Part shown: piece after piece, positions 3,017 to 59,538 of the stretch | Layout: every line of letters starts with the position of its first letter | Numbering within the stretch: position 1 is the stretch's first letter | Origin: Desulfobotulus alkaliphilus | Lineage (GTDB): Bacteria > Desulfobacterota > Desulfobacteria > Desulfobacterales > ASO4-4 | Assembly (NCBI RefSeq): GCF_007830435.1 | Contig: NZ_VLLC01000007.1 | Coordinates: forward strand, 1 to 64,000 | Length of the DNA: 64,000 nt | Reading direction: 5' to 3' | The notes under the pieces: model-generated | The model's input: the letters and a program-made list of their open reading frames with translations, nothing else | What the model was told of the DNA's origin: nothing | Databases searched by the model: none | Program-made: the position numbers and the translations under genes

Positions 3017-3077
3017 ACAAAATCTTTCTTGGCTTCCGTCATGCGGCAGGATGCCGGCTTTGTTGGTTTTGGCTTCG

Positions 3078-3212
3078 CTAGAAGGCTTTTTTCAGACAAT
3101 CTTCAAATTGCCTTTCAACAGCAGAGCGAAGATAGCCATCCTTGTCATATTCTTCGAAAGATCTGTTTTCGACAAATCGTTCTGTTTTTTTACAGGCATC
3201 CAAAGCGTCATA
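3078..3212 (-). pseudogene. HepT-like (DUF86) gene remnant
   Basis: A 44-codon open stretch on the minus strand, too short for a standard ORF call, reads like the middle of a HepT/DUF86 protein. It has YDALDACKKTERFVE, then SFEEYDKDGYLRS, then AVERQFEDCLKKAF and a stop. In intact members the AVERQFE block continues with IGEAL and about 50 more residues including the RxxxxHxY active site, all missing here. There is no start codon in frame before the upstream repeat. Intact HepT acts as the toxin of the HepT-MntA toxin-antitoxin pair. This piece should be inactive, and no MntA partner is present. Confidence 0.6.
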
Positions 3213-3218
3213 CTAAAA

Positions 3219-3278
3219 AGCAACCCACGCCGTGTTACGGCGTCTTGTCATAGAGTAACTTTTGAAGTTACTCAGAAG
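3219..3278. repeat. 60-bp double-hairpin repeat, copy 1 (family R1)
   Basis: The unit contains two hairpins: CGCCGT-gtt-ACGGCG and GAGTAACTT-ttg-AAGTTACTC. It matches the copy at 33456-33515 at 56 of 60 bases by eye. A degenerate copy follows immediately. Confidence 0.85.
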
Positions 3279-3412
3279 CAGCTCACGCCCTGCTAGGGCG
3301 TCTTGTCATAGAGTAACTTGTGCAGGATTCAAACTAATTTCGATCAGTGATGGATAATTGGTAATTTTTTAAGCTTTTGAATTAAAAGAACTAAATTCAA
3401 GTTACTCAGAAG
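3279..3412. repeat. Double-hairpin repeat, copy 2, opened by an insertion
   Basis: This copy has a compensated first hairpin (CGCCCT-gct-AGGGCG), so the stem is kept although the bases differ from copy 1. Its second hairpin is split: GAGTAACTT sits at about 3310-3319 and AAGTTACTCAGAAG at 3399-3412. About 80 bp of A+T-rich DNA lies between, in what would be the loop. Confidence 0.7.
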
Positions 3413-3448
3413 TTCAAATCCCACTCGATATGATGTATATTGCTGCTT

Positions 3449-3868
3449 ATGAAAAAACAAGACGCTAGAAAACTCGATCATAAGACCCGTGAGGCTATCC
3501 GCATACGCGCCGTGCAGCAGATAGAATCGGGTGAAAGCCCAGAGGTGATCGCCAGGGCTCTGGGTTACCATCGATCCGCAATTTACCAGTGGATAGCCAA
3601 ATACCGCAAAGGCGGCCTTGACGCTTTAAAGACGAAACCGATTCCAGGTCGGCCCGTTAAGTTCCAGACCAAAGATTTTGATGAGCTTTTCTGGAAGATT
3701 GCGGATAAAAATCCTATGGACTACGGATTTCCATTTGCGCTGTGGACCCGTGAAATGATTCGGGAGTTTATCAAAAAGGAGTTCGGAGTTTCCATAAGTA
3801 ATGCAAAAGCAAACCATAAAAGTTGCCAGTTTTTTAGAGAACAAAACACCCAGTATATTTTGGCTTAA
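3449..3868 (+). pseudogene. Truncated IS630-type transposase (N-terminal part)
   Basis: The 139 codons encode the DNA-binding half of an IS630/Tc1-like transposase. A helix-turn-helix (EVIARALGYHRSAIYQWIAKY) is followed by a basic GRP linker and the second winged-helix region ending in FGVSISNA. After that the sequence departs from the family (KANHKSCQFF) and stops, so the catalytic DDE domain is absent. The ATG at 3449 is used as the start, and an in-frame TTG lies nine bases upstream. It sits beside the R1 repeats and a HepT remnant, in a stretch of decayed mobile DNA. Confidence 0.8.
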
Positions 3869-3959
3869 TGTTAAATGCGTTATGAGCCCATTAGTAAATC
3901 GAAAATTGACCTTTAAAACAAACTGGTTTTACTCATCAGCTTTTGGGAAGCATTAAGGA

Positions 3960-6183: not shown

Positions 6184-7653
6184 TCAACAATACTCCTTCC
6201 CAATAAAATCAGAATCTCTTTCCTGAAAAACAGACCTTCTTGGCATATCTTTTACCTGTGACTGAGGAATAATTTTACCAATATTTTCACTTGTAAAACT
6301 AAGGCCATAAGCTACAGCAAGGCGTTCGTATTCCTTTGGTACAAGCCCTTGCTCCTTAAAGCCAGAAGGAACTGGAATTGAATAAACATGAAACTTTCCC
6401 ATTCCATTTGCAGCAATACGCTCTCCTCGTTCATGAATGCCATCTCGATACAAAACTACCCTTGCCCCACCTCCGCAGATAAAAACAGGAAGTCCCTTTT
6501 TCCATTCAGGAGCGTATCCATAACGATCTTTATATGTATACTTAATCAATTCACCAATTTTTGCTGAGCACTGTTTCCAGAACTGCATATCTGACTTATT
6601 CATTTTTTCTATAAAATCATCTTCCTCAAAAAACACAAAGCCTTTTCTTCTTAAAAGATCAGCATAATATTCCGAGCCAGGAAAATGATCTTCAAAAAAT
6701 TGAGAAGCAAACAAATCAACCCCATATTCTTCTTTAAGGTGATTCATTCTGTTTTTATGAAGCATCATGGTGCCATATTTCACAACATCTGTTGCAAGTA
6801 TGGGATAGTGATTATCGCCATCATTCTCATGAATCATAAATGTTGCCATATCCACCGTGCTTCCTCCTATATCCACCAAAAAATGCATACCGTTTCTGCG
6901 CATAGGAGAATGAACATAGCCTGCAACCTCTGCAATTACCTCTGGATGCACCTGTACATTTTCTGTATGAAGCCACTGTGCCCCAAAATCCTTTTTACGA
7001 GCATTTTTTCCAATAATTTTAAACAGTATTTCAGCGGCCATATGAATTACTGCCTCTGCAAGAGTATTCTGAACCATAGCCATAGTCAAAGGTTCTGAAC
7101 TGCGAGAAAGTTTCCATGCTGCAAAAGCTATAGTACGAAAAACTCTTTCTTTTGAAGTTCTGTAATTCTTAGAAGCTATTCCGATATTCAAATCCCAGTT
7201 TATCAGGGTTTTTCTATAAACGGACTCTGTATGAACAAGAAACCATGACCTTGCATAACGAATTAAAAGGGCAAGATAGGCCGTAGCAAGCTCTGTTGGG
7301 GCAAAAGACTCAAGCTTATTCATGACACTGGATATTTTACGCCCCGCCATCTCCATAACAGCTGTTTTAAAATCTATATAAAAATCAAAGCCACTGGAAA
7401 GACTCAACAATCCTTCCTCAGTAACAAATAGACGGGTCGGCAACAAATAGGTTTCTTTTCCTCGATCAATATCCTCAAAAGAAACAGCATAAGCTTTTTG
7501 CAAGGCATTATCTTGTATGACAACCTTTGAAAATGATGTGCCAAAATCAAGCCCAAGAACAACATCACTCTCATCAAAATCATAATCCAAAGACTCACAG
7601 ATCTGATCTTTTCCATAAAAACGACGCAACTTTTCAGAACGCACCCTTCCCAT
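6184..7653 (-). CDS. Actin/Hsp70-fold (ASKHA) ATPase paired with SNF2-like helicase
   Basis: The 489-residue protein has the three nucleotide-binding motifs of the actin/Hsp70/sugar-kinase fold: VLGLDFGTSFSKVV (phosphate 1, residues 32-45), FLVDIGGSTVDMATF (phosphate 2, near 260) and VFICGGGARVV (adenosine, near 390). It lacks the Hsp70 substrate-binding domain. I choose the ATG at 7653 because AAGGTGAGG precedes it at proper spacing and it falls 16 bp after the helicase stop. A longer frame from 7770 would overlap the helicase by 101 bp. Close coupling to the helicase gene suggests joint function, perhaps defence-related. The exact family and role are unknown to me. Confidence 0.75.
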   Translation of the reverse strand: MGRVRSEKLRRFYGKDQICESLDYDFDESDVVLGLDFGTSFSKVVIQDNALQKAYAVSFEDIDRGKETYLLPTRLFVTEEGLLSLSSGFDFYIDFKTAVMEMAGRKISSVMNKLESFAPTELATAYLALLIRYARSWFLVHTESVYRKTLINWDLNIGIASKNYRTSKERVFRTIAFAAWKLSRSSEPLTMAMVQNTLAEAVIHMAAEILFKIIGKNARKKDFGAQWLHTENVQVHPEVIAEVAGYVHSPMRRNGMHFLVDIGGSTVDMATFMIHENDGDNHYPILATDVVKYGTMMLHKNRMNHLKEEYGVDLFASQFFEDHFPGSEYYADLLRRKGFVFFEEDDFIEKMNKSDMQFWKQCSAKIGELIKYTYKDRYGYAPEWKKGLPVFICGGGARVVLYRDGIHERGERIAANGMGKFHVYSIPVPSGFKEQGLVPKEYERLAVAYGLSFTSENIGKIIPQSQVKDMPRRSVFQERDSDFIGKEYC

Positions 7654-7669
7654 TAAAGACCTCACCTTA

Positions 7670-10600
7670 TTATAATAATCGAAGAACGCCCGCACATATC
7701 TCACGCTGCTCATGGACCAGCCTGCGCCCAGCTTCAAGTGCACGAAGCCTAGAACCCACTTTGGTTTCAAGCTTTGCCATTTTTCCCTTGACTGCCGGAA
7801 CCATCCTGCTCAGACCTTTCTCTTCATGCCCCTTTAAAACACGGCTCAAATTCTCTATCTGCCGTTCCATGTGCAGCTTTAGAGTTTTTTCCTGTAGATC
7901 AGCCCTGTCATTATTTTCATTTTCAAGCATCATGATATATTCATTATATCTATTTTCAAGATAAGAGACACAGTCGTCAAAAAGCCCCTCAAGCAAAACA
8001 GTATTCACGTCATTTTTTACACCAGGCCAATCTTTACCAAAACGTGCCGTAGCAACAACCAGCTTTTCTGCATCTTCATCCTTAAGCATACTGGACATAC
8101 CAAAAGGCTTGGCTGAAAAGGCCATCTTTTCAACATCCCGAATCCCTTTAACGCTCCATAGTTCAACATAAAAAAAATAATCACCAGAAGGCAGTTCTGG
8201 TATATAATCATGATCAAGAAAAACACCGACAAGAGGATGATAAACCCTTTGTCCACAACGAATTTTTTCTTTTATTTTATCACCTATGAATCGTATCAAA
8301 GGATGAAACTGATTAATGAATTCTATATTCCCTGCGTTATCATGCTGAACCTGATTTTTAAATTCACAGTAAAAAGGCATGTGTGTCTGAAGTATCCGAG
8401 TTTGGCCTGCAAGTCTGTGATCCTGCATAAAACGATCAAGATCATAATACGCCTTTTCTGACAGCCTCAGCTCAAAAACCGAATTATCCGATTCCAACTG
8501 ACGAAGAAGGCACCCCTTATAGTTGATTTCTAAAAAATCCCTAGTATAAATCCAAAGATCATTTCCCTGAATGGAACGGCCTATATCTCTGGCGGCCTGA
8601 ATTTGACGAAGAATAAAATCACCATGGGCCATTAAATTTCCAGCATCCCGCTCTAAACGATCTTCCTCAACCTTAAGATTATTAAGAGCCTGCGCTGTCT
8701 GCCTGATTCTGTCCTCTTCCTGTGACGGTGATAGCCTGTTTCCCATCAGGTCCAGGGTCATTTTTTTAATCTCTTCGCCAAGTACAGTCTCCATTCCACC
8801 AAGTGCATATTCAAATATTTTCAACCGTGAATACAACCGATCATAAATTCTTGCATCTATTGTGTTTTCATAAAACAAATTCCATACGGTTATCTTTGAT
8901 GATTCCTGTCCAAGCCGATCAATTCGGCCAATTCTCTGTTCAACTCTCATCGGATTCCATGGTAAATCATAATTAACAAGTATTCTGGCAAACTGGAGAT
9001 CAATTCCTTCACTGGCGACCTCTGATGCAAGGAGTAAGGATGGGCCTTGCGGGTCTTTAAACTCTTTCAAAATAAAATTTTTCTCTGTATCTGGCATTCC
9101 ACCAACCAACACAAGCCCTCTTATCCCATCCTGCATTAAGCGTTCATGCAAATAGTAAAGTGTTGGCCTGAAGTAAGAAAAAAGAACTATCTTTTCAAAA
9201 GGATATTCTTGAAGATGTTTTTTTATCAGCCCGAACAGGCGATGATATTTAGAATCATTTTCCCAAAGTACTTCAAGATTACCAAAATTAACCGTATCTC
9301 GAAGGAGAGATTGTACCAAAGGTCCAACATCACGCACATCTTCTACACTGCTGCCAATATCTTCATCCAGAGAAAAGCAGATTTTTTTTCTACGCTGCCA
9401 ATCCCTCAAGGCTGCTGGCATGGAACTTGATATTTGGCGCTGGGGCGTAACCATAAGAAAACCTTCATGGCCGCCACTTCTGGAACAATAGTCCCGAACA
9501 TGGCCTGTTACCCTTTCATAAAATTCTTCCTCAACCAATGTCATTGGAATGTTCTCTGCAACAGCTTCCCTGACTACCCGCCACTCAGTTACATCCCGCT
9601 TTCTGGTACGGGTAACAGCATGCCCAAGCAGATTGATTCCTTCCAGTCGATGGGCAAAATAGCTCCGTCGGGACCTGTCTTTAATCAAATCACTTTTCGG
9701 AACCTCATCCAAAATGGCCTGAAGCTGACGATTATTTTTTAACAGAACATGCTTTTTTGCTTCATTAATTTTTTTTACAAACAATGAAATGTCAGGATTC
9801 CCAGACAAAAGGATATCCCTTGCCGCAAGCAAGGGGGCGTTAGCATTAAGAATATCATCAAAAACATGGGGCTGATTGAAGGTGTCTTCATCAACAAGAT
9901 TTAAGAGGGCGTAAAGATCCTGACTCCTCAAATGAACAGGTGTCGCTGAAAGAAGAACTACATGCTCAGCAACATTACGCAGCAAACGACCAATCTGATA
10001 GGTCATACTGCCATGATTCCTGAGATAATGAGCTTCATCAATAATCAGAAGATCCAGCAAGTCTTCATCATAAGCCATATCATTTAAAATAAAAGCTAAT
10101 TCGTCCGATGCCGATGCAAATGAGTCCCTGCTTTTCTCCTCCCAATCTTTTCCGGGCCTTAATCCCTGCATACTTGCAATAATTGCAAAATCTCTCCGAT
10201 CCCCTTCTATGTATTCACAAAGAATTCGTTTCACTTGTGAAGCATCTGCAATCTGCGCATCAATACCAAAACGGCGCGCCAATTCCTGCCGCCATTTTGC
10301 ACCAAGCATCGCCGGACAAAGGACCAAAAGGCGGCGGGCATCATAACGGCTACGCAACTCTGTCCATATCAGCCCTGCTTCTATTGTTTTACCCAGCCCA
10401 ACCTCATCAGCAATAAGTATTCCTCTGCTCGGAGAGTCCAAAAAATTGAGAACGGGTTTGAACTGATAAGGGTAAAATGTTGTTAGCGTAGTTTCCATGC
10501 TGTAAATCAAATCAGCAAGCTTACCACTAAGGCGAATATGGGTAATACTACCCCGCAAATCACCAATTCTGCCGAACTTTTTTTTAAATAATAAATCAAG

Positions 10601-10780
10601 GGCATCTTCAGCTTCTTCAGGAAGATGTTCCAATTGTTTTTCAGCAACATAGCGAATGCCGTCCGGGAAACGTATCTGCCACGACACTCTGCCTCCACGA
10701 TTTCGACTTTTAACAACTGTCCCCATACTGCCTGGACTTGAGATGATACGCACAGAATCACCCGGAGAAAAAAAAGGCAT
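7670..10780 (-). CDS. RapA/SNF2-like DNA translocase/helicase
   Basis: The 1036-residue superfamily 2 ATPase begins with a small SH3-like beta domain (about residues 5-50). The SNF2 motor follows: Walker A ADEVGLGKTIEAGL (124-137), DEAH in LLIIDEAHYLRN near 248, LLSATPVH, and the second RecA lobe with SEVASEGIDLQF and NYDLPWNPMRVEQRIGR near 610. The C-terminal 400 residues are unassigned, with coiled-coil tendency near the end. Its motor resembles BrxHII in this same window, and DpdE- or DrmD-type defence helicases are comparable. The gene is A+T-rich relative to core genes and forms a two-gene unit with the ASKHA ATPase. No methylase or nuclease partner is adjacent. Confidence 0.85.
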   Translation of the reverse strand: MPFFSPGDSVRIISSPGSMGTVVKSRNRGGRVSWQIRFPDGIRYVAEKQLEHLPEEAEDALDLLFKKKFGRIGDLRGSITHIRLSGKLADLIYSMETTLTTFYPYQFKPVLNFLDSPSRGILIADEVGLGKTIEAGLIWTELRSRYDARRLLVLCPAMLGAKWRQELARRFGIDAQIADASQVKRILCEYIEGDRRDFAIIASMQGLRPGKDWEEKSRDSFASASDELAFILNDMAYDEDLLDLLIIDEAHYLRNHGSMTYQIGRLLRNVAEHVVLLSATPVHLRSQDLYALLNLVDEDTFNQPHVFDDILNANAPLLAARDILLSGNPDISLFVKKINEAKKHVLLKNNRQLQAILDEVPKSDLIKDRSRRSYFAHRLEGINLLGHAVTRTRKRDVTEWRVVREAVAENIPMTLVEEEFYERVTGHVRDYCSRSGGHEGFLMVTPQRQISSSMPAALRDWQRRKKICFSLDEDIGSSVEDVRDVGPLVQSLLRDTVNFGNLEVLWENDSKYHRLFGLIKKHLQEYPFEKIVLFSYFRPTLYYLHERLMQDGIRGLVLVGGMPDTEKNFILKEFKDPQGPSLLLASEVASEGIDLQFARILVNYDLPWNPMRVEQRIGRIDRLGQESSKITVWNLFYENTIDARIYDRLYSRLKIFEYALGGMETVLGEEIKKMTLDLMGNRLSPSQEEDRIRQTAQALNNLKVEEDRLERDAGNLMAHGDFILRQIQAARDIGRSIQGNDLWIYTRDFLEINYKGCLLRQLESDNSVFELRLSEKAYYDLDRFMQDHRLAGQTRILQTHMPFYCEFKNQVQHDNAGNIEFINQFHPLIRFIGDKIKEKIRCGQRVYHPLVGVFLDHDYIPELPSGDYFFYVELWSVKGIRDVEKMAFSAKPFGMSSMLKDEDAEKLVVATARFGKDWPGVKNDVNTVLLEGLFDDCVSYLENRYNEYIMMLENENNDRADLQEKTLKLHMERQIENLSRVLKGHEEKGLSRMVPAVKGKMAKLETKVGSRLRALEAGRRLVHEQREICAGVLRLL

Positions 10781-11868: not shown

Positions 11869-12141
11869 AGAATTGCATACTTTGTGCCAGACAGCAAAGG
11901 CCTTGATTCATAGCGATTACAAGAACAAGGCCTGCTTCCATGAAAGGCCCGTTTGCGCCCACAATTCTGGCGCCGCCAACTTCAGTCCCATGCTAGGCAA
12001 GTCCATGCCTAAAGCCCCTTAAAATGATGGCACAGAAACCAGACGGATCGCCTCACCGCCCTGTTTTTGACTGAGAATGCTCCCGCAACTCGAAAAAAGA
12101 GGGCGGGACTGAAGATAATCAAGCTGGATCAAAGAAGTCCC

Positions 12142-46532: not shown

Positions 46533-49500
46533 ATGAAATACGGAGACCTTATTCAGTTCGATCCCATTGAGTCTGTGGTTCAGCTGCGTGATGCGGACAG
46601 ATCTGCCGCTGCTCAGAGCCTTGTGAACACCTATGTTATTTCCGATGAAATGGCCGAACGGCTCACACAGCTTGTCATTCCTCAAATGCAGTTCGATCAG
46701 CCTATGGACAATAAGGGACTGCTGGTGGTCGGAAACTACGGAACGGGTAAATCGCACCTCATGTCTGTGATCTCCAGTATTGCCTCAGATGCTTCTCTGC
46801 TGGATGCATTGAAAAATGATAAGGTGCGTGAATCTGCATCCCAGATTGCAGGACGGTTCAAGGTCATCCGGACAGAGATTGGAGCCACCACCATGTCCCT
46901 GCGGGATATCCTTGTGGCAGAACTGGAAGAGCATCTCGAAAAACTTGGTGTGGAATATGTTTTCCCTGAAGCAGACACCATCAGCAGTCACAAGCGGGCC
47001 TTTGAAGATATGATGGACAGGTTCAGCACTACTTTTCCTGACCAGGGCCTGCTGCTGGTGGTCGATGAGCTGCTTGACTACCTACGCACCCGAAAGGATC
47101 AGGAATTGATTCTTGATCTCAACTTCCTCCGTGAGGTTGGTGAGGTCTGCAAGGATCTGCGCTTTCGCTTCATGGCCGGTGTCCAGGAGGCCATTTTTGA
47201 CAGCCCCCGCTTTGCATTTGTTGCCGACAGCATCCGCCGGGTAAAGGATCGTTTTGAACAGATCCTCATTGCCCGCAATGATGTGAAGTTTGTTGTGGCC
47301 GAACGCCTGCTCAAAAAAAACGCCGAGCAACAGGCTAAAATCCGGGACTACCTGATGCCCTTTGCCAGATATTACGGCAATCTTAACGAACGCATGGATG
47401 AGTTTGTCCGACTCTTTCCCGTCCATCCGGATTACATTGATACCTTTGAACGGGTGACCGTGGTGGAAAAACGGGAGGTCTTAAAAACCCTGTCCGTTGG
47501 AATGAAAGGCATCATAGATAAGGACGTGCCGCAGGACGAACCCGGCCTGATCGCCTTCGACAGCTATTGGGGTACCCTCAAGCAGAACGCTTCGTTCCGC
47601 GCCATTCCCGAAATCCGGGCAGTCATTGATTGCAGCCAGGTTCTGGAATCCCGCATCGAGAACGCCATCACCCGCAAACAATACAAGCCGATGGCGCTAC
47701 GCCTGATCCATGCTCTGTCCGTCCACCGCCTTACCACTGGCGACATCTTTGCCCCCATGGGCGCATCCGCCGAGGAACTGCGCGACCGTCTCTGCCTGTT
47801 TGATCCGCTGATCGCCGAGCTGGGTAGCGACGAACCCGACAAGGATCTCCAGACCCATGTGGAAACGGTCCTGCGCGAGATCCACAAGACAGTCAGCGGC
47901 CAGTTCATCTCCTTCAATGCTGACAACCGCCAGTTCTATCTTGACCTGAAGAAGACCGATGACTTCGACGCCCTGATCGACAAGCGGGCCGAAAGCTTGG
48001 GGCAGGCTCAGCTCGACCGCTTCTATTACGAGGCGCTCAAGCGGGTCATGGAATGCCAGGACGCCACCTATGTAACCGGCTATAAGATATGGCAACACGA
48101 ACTTCTGTGGCATGAGCGTAAGGCAGCCCGCACCGGCTATCTCTTTTTCGGTGCTCCCAATGAGCGCTCCACCGCCGTGCCTCAGCGGGACTTCTACCTC
48201 TATTTTATTCAGCCCAACGATCCGCCCCGCTTCAAGGACGACAAGGTCAATGACGAGGTCTTTTTCCGCCTGAAAGGCACAGACGAGGAATTCCAAACCG
48301 CGCTGAAGAGTTATGCGGCCGCCCTGGACCTTGCCGCCACCTCATCGGGCCACGCCAAGGCCACCTATGAATCGAAGGCCAACGGCTTCCTGAAGAAGCT
48401 GGTCCAGTGGCTGCAGAAGCACATGAGCGATGCCTTCGAGGTCACCTATCAGGGCCGCTCCAAGTCCATGACCGGATGGGCCAAGGGGAAATCCATCCGT
48501 GATCTGTCCGGCTTGTCGCCCCACGAGACCATCAACTTCCGTGACCTGGTGAACACCATCGCCGGTGTCTGCCTGGCTCCGAACTTCGAGAACCAGGCCC
48601 CGGACTACCCGTTCTTCTCGGTTCTGATCACCGGCAACAACCGGGCCCAGGCCGCGCAGGACGCCCTGCGGGCCATCGCCGGGCAGAACCGCACCAAGCA
48701 GGCCACGGCCGTACTGGACGCCCTGGAGCTGCTCGACGGCGAGAAGATCGACCCCTACAAGTCGAAGTACACCAAGTTCATCCTCGATGCCGTCAAGGCC
48801 AAGGGGCACGGCCAGGTAGTGAACCGCAGCGAGATCATCCAGGACGACCACGGGCTGGAATACATGAACCCCGGCGGTGGTCGGCTTGAGCCGGAATGGG
48901 TGGCGGTCATCCTGGCTTCGCTGGTCTATTCCGGCGACATCGTGCTCGCCATTCCGGGCAAAAAGTTTGACGCCACCGGACTACAGCAGCTTGCCGCGAC
49001 CGGCATGGACGAGCTGGTCCGCTTCAAGCACCTGGAGCAGCCCAAGGAATGGAACCTGCCCGCGCTCAAGGCGCTGTTTGAACTGCTCGGCATGACGCCG
49101 GGCATGGCCCAGCTCGTCACCCAGGGCAAGGACGAGCCGGTGCAGAACCTGCAACAAGCGGTGGGCAAGATCGTCAAGCGCATCGTCATGACCCAGCAGA
49201 CCCTGCGCGAAGGGCTCTCCTTCTGGGGCCTAAACCTGCTTGCGGGAACCGACCTGGCCAGCCAGGCCAGCGGGCTGATTGATGCCAAGGGCTTCTTTGA
49301 ATCGCTCCAGGCTTACTCCTCGCCGGGCAAGCTGAAAAACTTCCGCTACAGCGCTCCCGAAGTGCTGGCCCATGAAAAGGCCGTGAAGGCGCTCGATGAG
49401 TTGGACGCCCTGCGTGAGTTCATCATGGACCACAGCCCGACGGCCTCCTGGCTCTCCACCGCCGAGGCGGTGCTGCTCGCCGAGCATGACTGGGTGGATC

Positions 49501-50264
49501 GCATGAAGACCACCCGGCAGGATGTGCTGGATGCCCTCAAGCAGGCCGACCTGACCGAGCTGGCCAGCCAGTCCCAGTCCATCGGGGCCAAGCTGCAAAA
49601 GCTGAAAAAGGATTACACCGTCGCCTACATCGGCCTGCACACCAAGGCCCGGCTGGGGGTGAACGACGACAAGCGCAAGGCAGGACTGCTGGGCGACCAG
49701 CGGCTGCAAACCCTGCTCAAACTGGCCGGTATCGACCTGATGCCCCGGCAGCAGCTCACCGATTACCAGAATCGCCTGGCCGGACTGAAAAGCTGCTTTG
49801 CCCTGACCGAGCAAAACCTCGACGCCTCGCCCATCTGCCCGCATTGCGGGTTCCGGCCTTCGGTGGAAACAGGTGCGGCGGCAGGCTCGCAGATGATCGA
49901 CCAGATGGACGCCCAGCTCGACGCCATGGTGACGGCCTGGACCTCCACCATCCTCAGCAACCTGGAGGACCCGATCACCCAGGCCAACATGGATCTGCTG
50001 AAGATCGACGACCGCGAACCGCTGGAGGCCTTCATCAAATCGAAGGAACTGCCGGTGCCGCTGGACAGCAACTTTGTCCACGCCCTGAAGGAAGTGCTCT
50101 CCGGTCTGGTGAAAGTCACCGTCAAGGCGCAGGAGCTGCAACAGGCTCTGCAGGTTACCGACGGCCCGGCCACCCCGGCGGAGATGAAGAAACGCTTTGA
50201 GGAGTACATCGATCAGCTCACCAAGGGCAAGGACCCGGCCAAGGTGCGGATCGTTATGGAATAG
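46533..50264 (+). CDS. brxC: BREX protein BrxC (DUF6079-type AAA+ ATPase)
   Basis: BrxC is the large conserved ATPase of BREX systems. The 1243-residue protein has Walker [14 protein letters not shown] (residues 66-78), Walker [13 protein letters not shown] near 177 and a zinc-knuckle-like CPHC near 1108. Base composition changes inside the gene. Up to about 47.55 kb it is like the host (26 of 60 G+C at 46621-46680). From about 47.6 kb to the end it is G+C-rich with G/C-ending codons (40 of 60 at 48601-48660 and again at 49501-49560). This suggests a recombined or donor-derived 3' part. The frame is intact. Confidence 0.88.
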
Positions 50265-50268
50265 AAAA

Positions 50269-50327
50269 GTCACGGGTCGCGAGTCATGAGTCACGAGTCT
50301 ATGACCCAAGACCCGCGACTCGGGACC
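50269..50327. repeat. Inverted array of 7-bp repeats, array A
   Basis: The first half reads GTCACGG, GTCGCGA, GTCATGA, GTCACGA on the plus strand. The second half reads GTCCCGA, GTCGCGG, GTCTTGG on the minus strand. The consensus is GTCNCGR with no spacers. It starts five bases after the brxC stop and ends 22 bp before the four-helix-bundle gene. Confidence 0.88.
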
Positions 50328-50349
50328 AGATGACCTGAGCGGAGCGAAT

Positions 50350-50811
50350 ATGGCAAGGATTGAAAAGTTTGAAGATATCGAGGCATGGCAGCGGGCAAGA
50401 CAGCTCGCCAAAGCCGTGTATGCCGTCACATCGGAAGGAAGGTTCGCTCGCGATTTCGGACTGCGTGACCAGATTCAAAGAGCAGCCGTTTCGGTAATGT
50501 CCAACATTGCCGAAGGCTTTGAGCGTGGTGGCGATGTTGAATTCCGACGATTCCTTGCCATCGCAAAAGGCTCTGCCGGTGAAGTCAAAGCGCAGCTTTA
50601 TGTGGCTCTCGATGCCGGGTTGATTGACCAGACTGCTTTTGACTCGCTTTACAAATCAGCCACAGAAACAGGAAACCTCATTGGCGGTTTCATGCGCTAT
50701 CTGAGTCGAGGCCAGAAGAGTCGCGAGTCTCGGGTCTCGGGTCACGAGTCAGCGAGTCAAAATAGAACCCAAGGACTCGGGACCCGCGACTCGAAACCCG
50801 CGACCTCTTAG
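50350..50811 (+). CDS. Four-helix-bundle protein (23S rRNA intervening-sequence family), copy 2
   Basis: The 153-residue protein has the family core FEDIEAWQRARQLAKAVY, LRDQIQRAAVSVMSNIAEGF and FLAIAKGSAGEVKAQL, ending near residue 119 (MRYLSRG). The remaining 34 residues, rich in Arg, Ser and Glu, are encoded by the 7-bp repeat array B. They are therefore probably an accidental tail. GCGGAG precedes the ATG. This gene does not belong to canonical type 3 BREX. It sits inside the operon in the same orientation, with repeats on both sides, like a small mobile unit. Confidence 0.85.
   Translation: MARIEKFEDIEAWQRARQLAKAVYAVTSEGRFARDFGLRDQIQRAAVSVMSNIAEGFERGGDVEFRRFLAIAKGSAGEVKAQLYVALDAGLIDQTAFDSLYKSATETGNLIGGFMRYLSRGQKSRESRVSGHESASQNRTQGLGTRDSKPATS
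50720..50805. repeat. Inverted array of 7-bp repeats, array B
   Basis: Plus-strand units GTCGCGA, GTCTCGG, GTCTCGG and GTCACGA are followed by minus-strand units GTCCCGA, GTCGCGG, GTTTCGA and GTCGCGG, again head to head. The array overlaps the 3' end of the four-helix-bundle gene and ends about 20 bp before the pglXI start. Confidence 0.88.
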
Positions 50812-50827
50812 AGAATCGGAGTAATTC

Positions 50828-53656
50828 ATGAGCGACAAATACGGACAGCAACAGACGATGTTCGAGACAGAAGAACCCGCGACCCGCGACTCGGGACCCG
50901 TGACCTGCTTAGGCATGACCTTCGAGAACGACGAGGCCCGCCGTGCCCACTTTACCGAGGAACTGCGCAAGAAGCTGCAAGAGCCGGAGTTCCGCAAGAT
51001 CGAAGGATTTCCCATCGGCAGCGACGAGGACATCCTGAACCTGAGTGATCCGCCGTATTACACCGCCTGCCCGAACCCGTGGATCGCTGACTTCATTGCC
51101 GAATGGGAGACGCAAAAGCCGGAAAAGCCTGAGGGCTATCACTACCACCGTGAACCTTTTGCTTCTGATGTTGGCGAGGGTAAATACGATCCTTTTTACA
51201 AAATGCATCCTTATCCGACCAAAGTTCCTCATAAAGCTATTATGAAGTACATACTTCATTATACCGAGCCCGGGCATATCGTATTCGACGGATTTTGCGG
51301 CACAGGGATGACTGGAGTTGCTGCACAAATGTGTGGCGATCGTGATGCAGTTGTTTCACTTGGGTTTCAGGTAAAACCCGACGGTACAATTCTTCGTGAG
51401 GAAACTGAAGACAGTGGCAAGAAGACCTGGGTTCCTTTCTCTAAGATTGGCGCGCGGCGAGCCGTTTTAAACGATCTTTCTCCTGCGGCAGGCTTTATTT
51501 CTTATAATTACAATACACCTATCGACATCTCATCCTTTGAGAAAGAATCAAATCGCATCCTGAAAGAGGTCGAAAAAGAGTGTTCGTGGATGTATGAAAC
51601 AAAACACTCTGACGGCCGCACTGGAAAAATTAACTATACCGTTTGGTCAGATGTTTTTGTTTGTCAAGAATGTCTTTGTGAGGTGATATTCTGGGACTCA
51701 GCCGTCAATAAAGAACAGGGAACTGTTAATGATAAATTCCCGTGCCCTCATTGCTCATCTCAGTTAACGAAGAGAAATATGGAGAGAGCATGGATCACAA
51801 GATTTGACCCTCATCTGAAAGAAACAATACGACAAGCAAAGCAGGCTCCTGTCAAAATAAACTACTCTCTAGGTGGTAACCGGTTTGAAAAAAGACCAGA
51901 TGCAGATGATCTGGCCAGAATTGAAAAATCAGAGAGTATGCAGATACCACACTGGTTTCCGGTAGCGGCACTGCCTGACGGGTTCAATACATCACAGCCA
52001 ATTCGCTCTCATGGCATTACGCATCTCCATCATTTTTATTCTAACAGGAACCTTTGCGCTCTTGCGTCATATTTAAGCAGATGCACGACTCCAGCGCTTC
52101 GATTGGTTTTGACAAAAGTTTCTGGACAAATCACCAAAAGGTATCGCTTTACTTACCAGTCAGGTGTTTGGGGGGCAGGCGGAGGACCACAATCAGGTAC
52201 TTTATATGTTCCATCTTTGATTAAAGAGCTCAATATCATTGAGCAAATGAAAAGCGCCATCAGAGATCGGATTAAGTCTGGCTCGCCTTTCAAATCAAAG
52301 CTCAGCACAATATCAACCTCATCTGCAACAAACTTCCGAGACGAGTGTAATGCTGTTCTTGACTATGTATTTATAGATCCACCATTCGGCTCTAATATTA
52401 TGTATTCAGAGCTTGCGCTGCTTTGGGAAGAGTGGCTTGGTGTAAAAACGAATAATGAAAAAGAAGCCATCGAAAATAGTGTTCAAAACAAGGGGTCCGA
52501 CGAATATCGCAAGCTGATGTCTTCTGCATTCAGAAGAGCTTTTGAGCTACTCAAGCCAGGCCGCTGGATGACCGTTGAATTTTCAAACACTAAGGCAAGT
52601 GTTTGGAATAACATTCAAAGCGCTATGGCCGAAGCCGGGTTTATTGTTGCAAATGTATCTGCTTTAGATAAGAAAAAAGGTAGTTTTAAAGCGGTAACAA
52701 CCCCAACGGCAGTCAAACAAGACCTCGTTATCTCAGCCTACAAACCCAATGGTGGTTTTGAAGAACGCTTTCAGAACGAGGCGCAAACCGAAGCAGGCGT
52801 TTGGGATTTTGTCCGCACCCATTTGAAGTATCTGCCGGTCACGAAACAACAAGGAGCCTTGCTGCAGTTCGTCCCGGAACGCGATCCCCGCATTCTGTTC
52901 GACCAGATGGTAGCCTACTACGTCCGCAAGGGCTACCCCGTGCCGATCTCGAGCCAGGAGTTCCAGATTGGGCTGTCGCAGCGTTTCATCGAGCGCGATG
53001 GCATGTATTTCCTGCCGGACCAGGTGGCCGAATACGACCGCAAGAAGATGACCTCCGGTGCCCCACAGCAGCTTTCGATGTTCGTCTCTGACGAGGCATC
53101 TGCGATCCAATGGCTGCGACAGCTCATCAAGGAAAAGCCACAGACCTTCTCCGACATCAACCCTCAGTTCATGCAGCAGCTTGGCGGCTGGAGCAAGAAC
53201 GAGGCCCAGCTCGACCTGCGCGAACTGCTAAACCAGAACTTCCTCTGCTACGACGGCAAAGGCCCGGTGCCCGAGCAGATCCACGCCTACCTTTCCACCA
53301 ACTGGAAAGAGCTGCGCAACCTGCCCAAGGATGACCCGGCGCTGGTGACCAAAGCCCGTGACCGGTGGTATGTGCCCGATCCCAACAAGGCGGGCGACCT
53401 GGAGAAGCTGCGCGAGAAGGCACTGCTCAAGGAGTTTGAGGAGTACAAAGAGGTCAAGAAGAAACTCAAAGTTTTCCGTCTGGAGGCCGTCCGCGCCGGA
53501 TTCAAGAAAGCCTGGCAGGAGCGCGACTACGCCGTCATCGTCGCCGTGGCCGATAAGATCCCCAACAACGTCCTGGAAGAAGATCCCAAACTGCTCATGT
53601 GGTACGATCAGGCAGTAACAAGATCAGGAGATAACAGCGGAGGAGGGCTTTTATGA
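50828..53656 (+). CDS. pglXI: BREX type 3 adenine-specific DNA methyltransferase PglXI
   Basis: PglX marks host DNA in BREX. The 942-residue protein has SAM motif I VFDGFCGTGMTGVA (near residue 153), the catalytic DPPF in VFIDPPFGSN (near 517), a further DPPYY near 76 and a zinc ribbon CQEC...CPHC (about 280-320). Residues 16-26 (EPATRDSGPVT) are encoded by a 33-bp block of 7-bp repeats, in frame. Composition is mosaic: both ends are G+C-rich, while the middle (about 51.13-52.76 kb) is A+T-richer (26 of 60 G+C at 51661-51720). The middle includes the presumed specificity region. CGGAG precedes the ATG. Confidence 0.88.
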   Translation: MSDKYGQQQTMFETEEPATRDSGPVTCLGMTFENDEARRAHFTEELRKKLQEPEFRKIEGFPIGSDEDILNLSDPPYYTACPNPWIADFIAEWETQKPEKPEGYHYHREPFASDVGEGKYDPFYKMHPYPTKVPHKAIMKYILHYTEPGHIVFDGFCGTGMTGVAAQMCGDRDAVVSLGFQVKPDGTILREETEDSGKKTWVPFSKIGARRAVLNDLSPAAGFISYNYNTPIDISSFEKESNRILKEVEKECSWMYETKHSDGRTGKINYTVWSDVFVCQECLCEVIFWDSAVNKEQGTVNDKFPCPHCSSQLTKRNMERAWITRFDPHLKETIRQAKQAPVKINYSLGGNRFEKRPDADDLARIEKSESMQIPHWFPVAALPDGFNTSQPIRSHGITHLHHFYSNRNLCALASYLSRCTTPALRLVLTKVSGQITKRYRFTYQSGVWGAGGGPQSGTLYVPSLIKELNIIEQMKSAIRDRIKSGSPFKSKLSTISTSSATNFRDECNAVLDYVFIDPPFGSNIMYSELALLWEEWLGVKTNNEKEAIENSVQNKGSDEYRKLMSSAFRRAFELLKPGRWMTVEFSNTKASVWNNIQSAMAEAGFIVANVSALDKKKGSFKAVTTPTAVKQDLVISAYKPNGGFEERFQNEAQTEAGVWDFVRTHLKYLPVTKQQGALLQFVPERDPRILFDQMVAYYVRKGYPVPISSQEFQIGLSQRFIERDGMYFLPDQVAEYDRKKMTSGAPQQLSMFVSDEASAIQWLRQLIKEKPQTFSDINPQFMQQLGGWSKNEAQLDLRELLNQNFLCYDGKGPVPEQIHAYLSTNWKELRNLPKDDPALVTKARDRWYVPDPNKAGDLEKLREKALLKEFEEYKEVKKKLKVFRLEAVRAGFKKAWQERDYAVIVAVADKIPNNVLEEDPKLLMWYDQAVTRSGDNSGGGLL
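50873..50905. repeat. 7-bp repeat block inside pglXI, array C
   Basis: On the minus strand the units are GTCACGG, GTCCCGA, GTCGCGG and GTCGCGG. The block is 33 bp, exactly 11 codons, so the reading frame is kept. It has one orientation only, unlike arrays A and B. Confidence 0.85.
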
Positions 53657-54729
53657 CAAAAAACCAAAAAATCCCCGTAAAAATAAGACGGATAAGCATT
53701 CGCAATTACAAGGGCATTGATACACTTGAAATGGATTTTCCCGCCCCCCGAATGCCCGATGATCCGGATATCCTGATTATGGGCAGCCAAAACGGCTTGG
53801 GCAAGTCCTCCATTATTGAGTGCTGTGCCTTGCTCTTGCTATCACTGACTCAAAGGGAAGAGAGGTTCAAACTGCGTGACCGTTACACCATTGTGAATGT
53901 ACCGGATTTGCTCATTAAATCTGGCTGTCATTTTGCGGAAATAAGCGGTGATATTGTTATTGGTGATGAAACCAGTACTGTTCATGTTAGAATAGATCGT
54001 AATGGTGTAATAAAAATATCAGGAGAAATACTCCGAGAAAAAATTATCGAAAATGAACTTTTTAATTCCGAGACTGAAGTTGAAGACTTCATTAAGGCAA
54101 TATGTGGCTTTACACCCAACCCTGTTATGGAAAACAAATTTCTTCTTTTCCACAGCTATAGGAAAGTCCAGGAGGGCAATCCTGAATTAGGAATGATGGT
54201 AGAGGGACGTTCACCAAAACGCCCTCCATTTCAGCGTTATGAAACACCAATGAGCACCTTCAAACTAAGAATTCTGCGCTCTCTGATGGGGCAGGCCAAT
54301 CTGTTTGAGCTTGGAGATGACGAAGATCCGGCGGAAACCATAGAAAAGCTCAACGAGCTGGTTCGATTTTATGCCCATGGTACCATCAGCAAGCTGAGGC
54401 CATCACCGGATAATACCGTTGACTTTCGCATAAAGCCCGTAAACGGTGAAGGCTCCTTTACCTTTGACGGACTGAGTTCCGGTCAAAAGGAAATCATTTC
54501 CACGCTGTTTCTCGTCTGGTACCACACCCGAAACAACCCCTCTGTAATCTTCATTGATGAACCGGAGCTGCACCTCAATGCCCAGTGGCACCGGAGTTTT
54601 GTCAAAATGCTTTTGCAAATGTCTCCGCAGAACCAGTACATCATGGCAACCCACTCCGAAGATATTATGGATTCGGTAAGCGAAGATCGCCGTGTTCTCC
54701 TTCTGGGCAAGGATGAGGGGGAGCTATGA
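53653..54729 (+). CDS. ABC-type AAA ATPase (SMC/OLD-like), first gene of the cassette inserted in BREX
   Basis: The 358-residue ATPase opens with the RecF/SMC-like IRRISIRNYKGIDTLEMDF, then Walker A GSQNGLGKSS (44-53), the ABC signature DGLSSGQKEI, Walker B VIFIDEPELHL and the H-loop MATHSEDI. No TOPRIM or other nuclease domain is fused, unlike OLD proteins. It may work with another cassette protein, as PtuA-like ATPases do. The ATG overlaps the pglXI stop (ATGA). Composition falls sharply from the G+C-rich pglXI 3' end. It is not part of canonical type 3 BREX. Confidence 0.8.
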   Translation: MTKNQKIPVKIRRISIRNYKGIDTLEMDFPAPRMPDDPDILIMGSQNGLGKSSIIECCALLLLSLTQREERFKLRDRYTIVNVPDLLIKSGCHFAEISGDIVIGDETSTVHVRIDRNGVIKISGEILREKIIENELFNSETEVEDFIKAICGFTPNPVMENKFLLFHSYRKVQEGNPELGMMVEGRSPKRPPFQRYETPMSTFKLRILRSLMGQANLFELGDDEDPAETIEKLNELVRFYAHGTISKLRPSPDNTVDFRIKPVNGEGSFTFDGLSSGQKEIISTLFLVWYHTRNNPSVIFIDEPELHLNAQWHRSFVKMLLQMSPQNQYIMATHSEDIMDSVSEDRRVLLLGKDEGEL

Positions 54730-54821
54730 TCCGTGTAAAAACAGGTATCCGTGCCGAAGAAGTCCGGCTGAAAAGCCAGCATTTGCTTTTTCAGGCGGTA
54801 ACACGGATGGGAGGGGAGTAA
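54726..54821 (+). CDS. Small ORF of 31 codons between the ATPase and GHKL genes
   Basis: The ORF begins at an ATG overlapping the ATPase stop (ATGA) and ends at a TAA just before the GHKL gene's GTG. It carries GGGAGGGGAG at its 3' end, which is also that gene's ribosome binding site. The product, MIRVKTGIRAEEVRL plus 16 residues, is basic. It fills the gap exactly and could couple translation, be a small component, or be the remnant of a partner such as a DUF4435 protein. Confidence 0.4.
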   Translation: MIRVKTGIRAEEVRLKSQHLLFQAVTRMGGE

Positions 54822-54824
54822 CCA

Positions 54825-55697
54825 GTGAAGCTCAACCTTGGCACAATCAGAAGCAATTGCAGTGGTTTTGAAGGTATAGCCCATATTGCCGACAAGACGA
54901 AGAATATTTGCTATGATTCCATTGAACTGGATTTTTCATCCTGCAGTTTTTTTGAAGCCAATATGGCGGCACCCCTATATGCCGTTATTGCACGACTTCG
55001 TGATGAGCTGAATGATGTGACCATTGCCAATGTGCCATCAGGAGTAAGTAGGATTCTCCGGAAAAACAAATTTCTGAGCATATTTAATCAACCTGATTTA
55101 TTGGACATCAATCAGACAACACTTCCCTTCAAGATTTTCAAACTACATGCAGGCGAGCAGTTTAATGATTATCTCGACACCTACATGAAAGGAAGGGGGA
55201 TTCCGACCATGTCTAAGGCCTTAACAAAACGCTTTAGACAGAGTCTGTTCGAAATATTTCTCAACGCAACTATCCATTCTCAGTCTTCATCGGGAATTTT
55301 TGTGTGCGGGCAATTTTATCCAAATAAACATCGGTTGGATTTTACCATTGCTGATGCCGGAGTCGGCATTCGGGAAAATGTACGCAGATATACAGGGAAG
55401 GCAACACTCAACTCCTGCAAGGCCATTGAATGGGCCATGACAGATGGTAATACCACAAAAACCGGGAATCAGCCGGGGGGTCTTGGGTTGAAGCTGATCA
55501 AAGATTTTATTCGAATGAATGGTGGAAAAATTCAGCTTGTATCAAGGTTTGGATATTATGAATTTTCTGCAAACGGTGAGGCTATTCAAAAAATGGATAA
55601 TGATTTTCCAGGAACCTGCATAAATATTGAAATTAACACAGATGATACAGGTAGTTACTGCTTAAAATCAGAGCTGAAAAACGAAGATATTTTTTAA
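54825..55697 (+). CDS. STAS-like/GHKL ATPase (anti-sigma-kinase-like)
   Basis: The 290-residue protein has an N-terminal STAS-like region (about 1-100, with SIELDFSSCSFFEANMAAP) and a C-terminal histidine-kinase-type ATP-binding domain. The N-box is FEIFLNATIHS (E143, N147, H151), the G1 box DAGVG (177-181) and the G2 box PGGLGLKLI (217-225). No histidine phosphorylation domain is present. The start is GTG with GGGAGGGGAG upstream. It precedes a DUF4325 STAS-like protein, so the two resemble a partner-switching pair. Targets are unknown. Confidence 0.82.
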   Translation: MKLNLGTIRSNCSGFEGIAHIADKTKNICYDSIELDFSSCSFFEANMAAPLYAVIARLRDELNDVTIANVPSGVSRILRKNKFLSIFNQPDLLDINQTTLPFKIFKLHAGEQFNDYLDTYMKGRGIPTMSKALTKRFRQSLFEIFLNATIHSQSSSGIFVCGQFYPNKHRLDFTIADAGVGIRENVRRYTGKATLNSCKAIEWAMTDGNTTKTGNQPGGLGLKLIKDFIRMNGGKIQLVSRFGYYEFSANGEAIQKMDNDFPGTCINIEINTDDTGSYCLKSELKNEDIF

Positions 55698-55714
55698 AAT
55701 ATAAGGAATCTACT

Positions 55715-56071
55715 ATGGGTGATCAAATTAAAATAAAGGTAGCGGATCTGATAGGCAGTCCGCTCTGCATATCCGCTGAGGACGGCCAGAAAGTATTTGA
55801 CAAGATCGAACAACTCCTAAGAGCTGGAAAACAGGTTAGCATTTCCTTTGAGAATGTAAGCATGTTGATCTCACTTTTTCTGAATGTTGCAATTGGGCAG
55901 CTCTATGGCTCTTTTAGCGAGGATGAGATTCGGACTCAGTTGAAAGTTGAAGGACTTTCTTCCGATGACATGGAACTGCTCAAGCATGTTGTGGATAATG
56001 CCAAGAAGTATTATTCCAACAAAAAATCTTATGATGATGCATGGCTGGAGGAAAACAACAATGAGGAATAA
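55715..56071 (+). CDS. DUF4325 STAS-like protein
   Basis: The 118-residue protein has the DUF4325 signature ISFENVSMLISLFLNVAIG (43-61), which matches the STAS-like fold in which a D/S-E-G-V strand is followed by the S-F-L-N helix. Proteins of this type are often encoded beside GHKL ATPases. It starts 17 bp after the GHKL gene and overlaps the PIN gene by 11 bp, so the three genes are translationally linked. A role as switch between the ATPase and the nuclease is inferred. Confidence 0.8.
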   Translation: MGDQIKIKVADLIGSPLCISAEDGQKVFDKIEQLLRAGKQVSISFENVSMLISLFLNVAIGQLYGSFSEDEIRTQLKVEGLSSDDMELLKHVVDNAKKYYSNKKSYDDAWLEENNNEE

Positions 56072-56612
56072 GGCCTATGATCTTTCTTCCTATTCCTTCA
56101 GTTCGGATGAACAGATTCTTGTGGATACAAATGTCTGGCTTTATCTGTTCCCGGCACCAACTGGCTCATCAAATAAATTGGCGGCTCAATACTCGACCGC
56201 TTTCTCAAACCTTGTTTCTGCGAAAGCTCAACCCGTACTTGATCCAATAGTGTTAAGTGAATACCTGAATCGCTATGTAAGAATTGAGTGGGAGGGAAAC
56301 TACAAATCCCGACATCCGAAATTTAAAGATTTCAGAAATTCATCGGATTTCTCAACAGTTGCATCGGTAGCAGAAGCATTTTCCAAAAAAATCCTAAGTT
56401 TCTGCCAAATTCATTCCATACCTGCCAATGAACTGGATCTGAATCAGGCACTGGCTGATTTTTCGGCTGGAAAAGTCGATTTCAACGATGCAATACTGGT
56501 GGATATCTGCAAAAAAAGAAATCTTAAGTTAATGACCAATGACGGTGATTTTCAGAACGGTGGCATCAAGGTTTTAACCTCAAATCCAAGACTTTTGAGA
56601 GCCTGCCCATGA
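56061..56612 (+). CDS. PIN-domain ribonuclease
   Basis: PIN domains are Mg2+-dependent RNases, many of them toxins. The 183-residue protein keeps the acidic set: D22 (ILVDTNVWLYLF), E67 (VLSEYLNRY), D143 (FNDAILVDIC) and D161/D163 (MTNDGDF). GGAGG lies nine bases before ATG 56061. The longer frame from 55947 overlaps the DUF4325 gene and is unlikely. No VapB-like antitoxin gene is adjacent, so the preceding STAS/GHKL pair may serve as the control device. Confidence 0.85.
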   Translation: MRNKAYDLSSYSFSSDEQILVDTNVWLYLFPAPTGSSNKLAAQYSTAFSNLVSAKAQPVLDPIVLSEYLNRYVRIEWEGNYKSRHPKFKDFRNSSDFSTVASVAEAFSKKILSFCQIHSIPANELDLNQALADFSAGKVDFNDAILVDICKKRNLKLMTNDGDFQNGGIKVLTSNPRLLRACP

Positions 56613-56676
56613 TGCACAGCTACTTTTGTGTTTTTCATTGTCCATCTGTAGCACCCGATAATAGACGGCATAAATA

Positions 56677-59535: not shown

Positions 59536-59538
59536 GAA

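Follow-up and report, generated by a model that had tools for sequence, protein, structure and literature searches.

A RapA-type SNF2 translocase and an Hsp70-type ATPase, encoded by two adjacent genes, are proposed to form an undescribed two-gene defence module that spreads horizontally and in which the ATPase would gate the translocase. We consider this reading as likely to be wrong as right (probability about 0.5): the defence role is inferred from genome context without any phage data, and the mechanism is likewise inferred. Both genes were located in the window, i.e. the whole stretch of 64,000 nucleotides that was analysed.

The helicase gene (window 7670..10780 including the stop, minus strand) was defined from its ORF and translation and encodes a RapA-type SNF2 translocase of 1036 aa. 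Pfam detected SNF2-rel_dom and Helicase_C, i.e. the SNF2 N- and C-lobes, and the motor motifs were identified as Walker A DEVGLGKT (125-132), DEAH (248-251) and motif VI QRIGRIDR (615-622). Across 51 loci, DEVGLGKT, D248/E249/H251 and QR.GR.DR were invariant or nearly so. In comparisons using the structural model (pLDDT 82), the only full-length match was E. coli RapA, residues 59-1036 of the helicase being aligned with residues 110-966 of RapA (Z 23.4, 775 residues, 21% identity), with a large rmsd explained by domains that are placed differently. A small N-terminal beta-barrel was delimited at residues about 1-56 (10613..10780, minus strand), on the basis of the model strands (9-52) and of the BrxHII/RapA architecture comparison (PMC12839542). 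The C-terminal part, residues about 736-1036 (7673..8575, minus strand), was delimited using the model, the match to the RapA C-terminus and truncated homologues, and is modelled as an alpha/beta domain with a long helical hairpin (927-1019) and a last strand. The motor and C-terminal domains are shared with RapA and the layout after the N-terminus is RapA-like, whereas RapA has a tandem pair of N-terminal barrels and the window helicase a single one. A PD-(D/E)xK nuclease was sought in the helicase C-terminus and no convincing conserved motif was obtained; as neither the helicase nor the ATPase has a recognised nuclease domain, direct DNA cutting is not proposed.

The ATPase gene (6184..7653, minus strand; coding 6187-7653 from an ATG, with the stop at 6184) encodes a protein of 489 aa, considered as an Hsp70-type (ASKHA) ATPase reduced to its nucleotide-binding domain (NBD) on the basis of translation, model and profile match. 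The 16-bp gap between the helicase stop and this ATG contains the ribosome binding site AAGGTGAGG (7660..7668, minus strand, read from the sequence), and because this site is strong, the ATG was preferred over the longer TTG start returned by the ORF caller (7770, 528 aa), which overlaps the helicase. The motifs are phosphate-1 DFGTS (36-40), K96, E238, phosphate-2 DIGGSTVD (261-268) and GGG (394-396), and residues D36, G38, T39, K43, K96, E238, D261, G263 and GGG 394-396 were invariant or nearly so over the 51 loci. The model (pLDDT 86, pTM 0.87) matched DnaK with Z 26.5 over 317 residues, the profile match to DnaK reached E 4e-7, and D36, E238, D261, T266 and D268 were aligned with D8, E171, D194, T199 and D201 of DnaK. 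The Hsp70 alignment covers only residues 28-458 of the 489, and no Hsp70 substrate-binding domain is present, the protein stopping about 31 residues past the NBD, with a pLDDT near 63 for the last 20 residues. Fold and ATPase residues are thus common to this protein and the DnaK NBD, but it differs from Hsp70/DnaK by the missing substrate-binding domain, by extra N- and C-terminal tails and by its helicase neighbour. No family was assigned to the ATPase by Pfam and NCBIfam searches, and the top structural rows included no actin-type fold, although this alone does not exclude one. Active sites that are intact and folds that are predicted were thereby shown by computation for both proteins; that both hydrolyse ATP is expected, an inference from the conserved residues.

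The preliminary description, made from sequence alone, had reported an SNF2-type translocase of 1036 residues followed 16 bp on by an ASKHA ATPase that is preceded by a strong ribosome binding site and has complete nucleotide motifs and no Hsp70 substrate domain. All of this held (ORFs, conserved residues and model), while its actin/Hsp70-fold partner was refined to one clearly of Hsp70 type, and its comparison of the motor with BrxHII was refined as well, the closest labelled family being DISARM DrmD and BrxHII falling outside the clade.

The tails of the ATPase are variable among loci. A C-terminal tail motif was enriched (25/55 against 33/640 other proteins), although it is clade-bound and the pattern was picked after the tails had been viewed. 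The ATPase of locus L015 (8710-10272) ends with two CxxCxGxG motifs resembling a DnaJ zinc finger, and that of L053 also has a cysteine-rich tail. The profile of the PADLOC candidate PDC-M61B gave partial matches (20 bits over 33 positions for the window protein, 17 bits over 59 for L011), and the PDC-M61 family was absent from all 192 class genomes searched.

Conservation of the pair was shown using the ATPase alignment alone as a query against about 85,000 species genomes, which returned 54 loci; this is at least the number present, since the scan relied on two short conserved motifs. An adjacent helicase of the window-helicase family, or a derivative of it, was present in 53 of the 54 (47 full length, 2 cut by contig ends, 2 fragments and 2 motor-less), so that chance is excluded. 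The exception, L066, is a weak match belonging to another ATPase family; at this Rhodobacterales locus (7319-10413), an unidentified protein of 485 aa is encoded immediately upstream of an Hsp70-type ATPase of 545 aa with DFGTSFSK. In the reverse check, all six plasmid helicases with at least 32% identity adjoin the ATPase. The co-occurrence that the preliminary description had asked to have checked is thus nearly obligatory. Gaps between the two genes are mostly -47 to +45 bp, with a few of 165-520 bp, and no natural helicase-ATPase fusion was met among the loci. Gene order is reversed at 13 cyanobacterial loci, where the ATPase is extended at its N-terminus by a long stretch, which in L032 comprises a hydrophobic segment and then a coiled coil. 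Distances of helicase and ATPase were correlated (r 0.95; permuted maximum 0.24 in 2000 permutations), which shows a shared history; joint inheritance alone would suffice for this, and contact is not proven.

The pair ranges over bacteria and one archaeon, from Cyanobacteriota to Methanosarcinaceae, with a patchy distribution (291 genomes of the window's class yielded 1 intact copy), and some copies are on plasmids. In a genome of the same order (G033), only the last 53 ATPase codons are left, near an integrase-type transposase ORF that is IS21-like by eye, a remnant indicating that the system comes and goes. No relatives were found in phage records or in IMG/VR viral contigs.

The next helicases (28-30% identity) are those of plasmids of Methanomethylovorans, Rhizobium and Ensifer and of four genomes of the window's class; the protein encoded downstream of them measures about 1000-1110 aa. 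Two of these downstream proteins were tested and contain an ATPase domain of sacsin/Hsp90 type (Pfam SACS, 66-67 bits); the remaining ones were assigned by a shared N-terminal sequence pattern. An alternative, Hsp90-like partner was thus shown by computation. These sister units, SNF2 helicase then sacsin/Hsp90-type ATPase, were recorded in L101 (6758-13242), L102 (6659-12995), L103 (6635-12955) and L105-L108 (archaeal plasmid, rhizobial plasmids and class genomes); they have the two-gene layout of the window pair with a GHKL/sacsin-type partner instead, and no name was found for them either. A tree built from 67 helicases gave full support to each of two clades, the main one with Hsp70-type partners (50 rows) and one with sacsin-type partners (7 rows). 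Both were joined with four deeper rows in one clade (99), apart from helicases beside DNA methyltransferases (DISARM DrmD, BREX-5, BrxHII and others). The deepest joins are unsure on account of long branches. From these two partnered clades, the motor has seemingly been combined with two different chaperone-fold ATPases.

At two cyanobacterial loci (L056 7599-10431 and L058 3362-6232), an intact ATPase that retains its motifs adjoins a motor-less helicase of 457 and 478 aa, respectively. These helicases, 32% identical to one another over 370 aa, retain their N-terminal part and some of the C-terminal domain, with the first lobe left in degenerate form, and lack Walker A, DEAH and the second lobe. 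It is this truncation that hints most strongly at the ATPase working with regions of the helicase outside the motor, an interaction that remains inferred.

A rival explanation, which is possible, is that of a chaperone-like sensor: the Hsp70-type (or Hsp90/sacsin-type) ATPase would bind a phage or misfolded client and release or activate the helicase as effector. It is favoured by the two unrelated partner folds of common chaperone origin, by the ATPase being the faster-evolving partner (35% identity to the nearest relative, L014, against 52% for the helicase) and by its variable tails (the DnaJ-like CxxCxGxG zinc motif of L015 and the N-terminal coiled-coil extension of L032). Against it, the Hsp70 client-binding domain is absent and fast evolution has other causes.

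The genes of the pair lie in a region of G+C 0.38-0.42 (6-11 kb), compared with 0.50-0.58 in most of the flanks. Conservation with two genomes of the same genus ends near window 3030-3090 and resumes near 12130, with a tRNA-Pro gene 55 bp further on, and the two flanks are not neighbours in these relatives; from these breaks on both sides, the block is accessory, without a clean empty site. The A+T-rich accessory region claimed in the preliminary description is thereby confirmed, and the transposon remnants claimed beside the pair were inspected by eye only. A simple insertion at tRNA-Pro was considered and rejected, the flanks not being adjacent in sister species and no clean empty site being found. 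By eye, positions 3190-3870 contain repeated GGCGTCTTGTCATAGAGTAACTT motifs beside a short, truncated transposase-like helix-turn-helix ORF, probably an IS remnant. Separately, positions 1-84 hold a dispersed repeat of 84 bp, of which this genome has about 40 or more copies (90-100% identical) and a genome of the same genus has as many. No recognised defence gene is directly beside the window pair, the adjoining genes encoding a phosphopantetheinyl transferase, a small non-DNA-type methyltransferase and a VTT protein; type 3-looking BREX genes (brxC, pglXI, a BrxH-type SNF2 helicase and pglZ) were identified by PADLOC at 46533-61557, about 36 kb away.

Defence genes were found at related loci. 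In L014, the order on one strand is brxA-brxB-brxC-[helicase-ATPase]-pglX-Hypoth_ymh-AbiLi/AbiLii-like-pglZ, the helicase being separated from brxC by 20 bp. A complete BREX-1 operon surrounds the pair only there, most loci having no adjoining BREX gene, which shows that the two genes are not BREX core genes. In L015, drmB-drmA are followed by the pair, which is on the opposite strand, and beyond it by a UG19 reverse transcriptase gene, drmMI and drmD; L019 has drmMI, a 205 aa protein, a Dsr1-like protein and the pair; and the order in L021 is drmA-drmB-NERD helicase-pair. Restriction or modification genes occur in L018 (GmrSD-HsdR-pair), L016 (Eco57I-type methylase, LmuB-like, pair) and L027 (type III methylase nearby), and on plasmid pAA03 restriction genes precede the pair and Hachiman and AbiEii follow it. 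HmaC is ahead of the pair in L040, and PDC-S68 comes after it in L046. A RecD-like helicase (PADLOC candidate PDC-S68, 1255-1275 aa) follows the pair at three Rhizobiales loci (L040 10366-14193, L043 10394-14209, L046 10392-14159), where it is possibly a third component.

Defence genes were among the nearest six at 7 of 11 first-set loci, against about 1 of 12 random 12-kb stretches of class genomes (Fisher p 0.009; 0.036 if 2/12). The link to defence islands put forward for checking in the preliminary description was thus shown for this sample, with a control that is small and not taxon-matched, and defence itself is still inferred. The limits of the defence reading are the lack of phage data, the cyanobacterial loci, which by eye (no defence-gene scan) are mostly among ordinary genes, the absence of a defence gene beside the window pair and the absence from viral records.

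A second rival, also possible, is a cellular, non-immune role, the helicase being a RapA paralogue with a regulator that serves RNA polymerase recycling, DNA repair or plasmid maintenance. RapA as sole full-length structural match, the ordinary surroundings of the cyanobacterial loci and the plasmid copies speak for it. Against it stand the very patchy distribution, the insertion inside BREX and DISARM operons and the RapA equivalog model PRK04914, which gave 165 bits for a cut-off of 576; unlike RapA, the helicase has a fixed Hsp70-type neighbour and an accessory, patchy distribution. The preliminary description had offered as a refutation that the pair be a known housekeeping unit; this failed, the pair being patchy, on plasmids, and in or beside BREX, DISARM and R-M loci.

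A third rival reads the helicase as the DrmD of DISARM and the locus as a remnant or a variant of that system; it is very unlikely and already contradicted. In its favour, the PADLOC DrmD model PDLC02623 matched the helicase over its full length with 903 bits, DISARM genes are beside the pair in L015, L019 and L021, and DISARM DrmD is likewise an SNF2 helicase of similar length. However, the NCBIfam DrmD models were below their cut-offs (NF038317: 420 bits for 610; NF038318: 154 bits for 950), and no match to DrmA (PDLC02575) or DrmB (PDLC02583) was obtained in the genome (G000, assembly 98% complete) at E 0.001. In addition, L015 encodes a distinct DrmD of its own (PDLC02621: 771 bits; PDLC02623: 84 bits), an annotated DISARM DrmD is outside the clade of the pair's helicases, and the window partner is an ATPase rather than a methyltransferase. 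drmMI is absent from the genes beside the window pair (locus only). DISARM membership was rejected on the missing DrmA and DrmB, the NCBIfam scores and the separate DrmD of L015. The same pair occurs in BREX and R-M loci, which suggests that the PDLC02623 label is neighbourhood-derived, likely from the pair sitting near DISARM genes in several genomes.

BrxHII of BREX, also present in the window (56677-59535), is another RapA-like SNF2 motor of a defence locus, but it shares about 30% identity in the motor only and works with BREX genes. Paralogy with the window helicase was rejected on this motor-only similarity and on the position of BrxHII outside the clade. The RapA-like architecture of BrxHII and auxiliary nucleases in BREX have been described (PMC12839542); Hsp70, ASKHA and chaperone were not found mentioned in the main text of that paper. 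CoCoNuT CnuD is an Hsp70-like ATPase in a predicted restriction system with McrBC (PMC11090510), but it has an NBD plus SBD, reportedly degenerate ATP motifs, and McrBC in place of an SNF2 motor (PMC11090510). No named two-gene system corresponding to the pair was found in PADLOC-DB 2.0.0, and no description of it was found in the open-access literature searched (subscription papers and most preprints being outside the scope), which supports the earlier statement that no named defence system with just this pair was known to its author.

SNF2 enzymes translocate along double-stranded DNA and remodel the complexes that proteins form with it, RapA acting on RNA polymerase, and Hsp70 ATPase domains alter their shape with the nucleotide. 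In the preferred reading, a gated defence module, the helicase would be a RapA-type SNF2 motor tracking along double-stranded DNA and the ATPase, without a substrate domain, would open and close with ATP. Most likely they would form one complex, with the ATPase docked on the helicase outside its motor, at the N-terminal barrel, the C-terminal domain and the helical arm; both complex and docking site are inferred. The ATPase would be a nucleotide-driven switch or clamp that keeps the motor idle, or else loads it, up to the encounter with invading DNA or with a protein complex linked to infection. On the invading DNA, the motor may then strip or block protein-DNA complexes (those of RNA polymerase, replication or packaging), the DNA target and the anti-phage effect being inferred as well. 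The pair would work by itself or in support of an adjacent system based on modification (BREX, DISARM or R-M); any cutting would come from the neighbours, which may explain its nesting in methylation-based systems.

RapA-like SNF2 helicases recur in anti-phage systems, and those compared here adjoin DNA methyltransferases. The helicase class was already known in defence, unlike the partner and the pairing. PDLC02623 is suggested to collect a different system, so that DISARM counts relying on it may be inflated. The two-gene size makes the module easy to test. A clade with a near-obligate Hsp70- or Hsp90-type ATPase neighbour suggests that chaperone folds can switch DNA motors in immunity. A bolder reading, which we hold tentatively and would not yet bet on, is a family of prokaryotic immune modules built from one RapA-type DNA motor and a chaperone-fold regulator of Hsp70 or Hsp90/sacsin type. 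Eukaryotic Snf2-actin/Arp remodelling modules combine a Snf2-family motor with a regulator of the actin/Hsp70 superfamily; the likeness is an analogy only, the window partner being of Hsp70 rather than actin type and neither complex nor docking being shown. If the bolder reading is true, these modules would be a bacterial parallel to the Snf2-actin/Arp modules, in which a chaperone fold has been turned into the gate of a DNA translocase.
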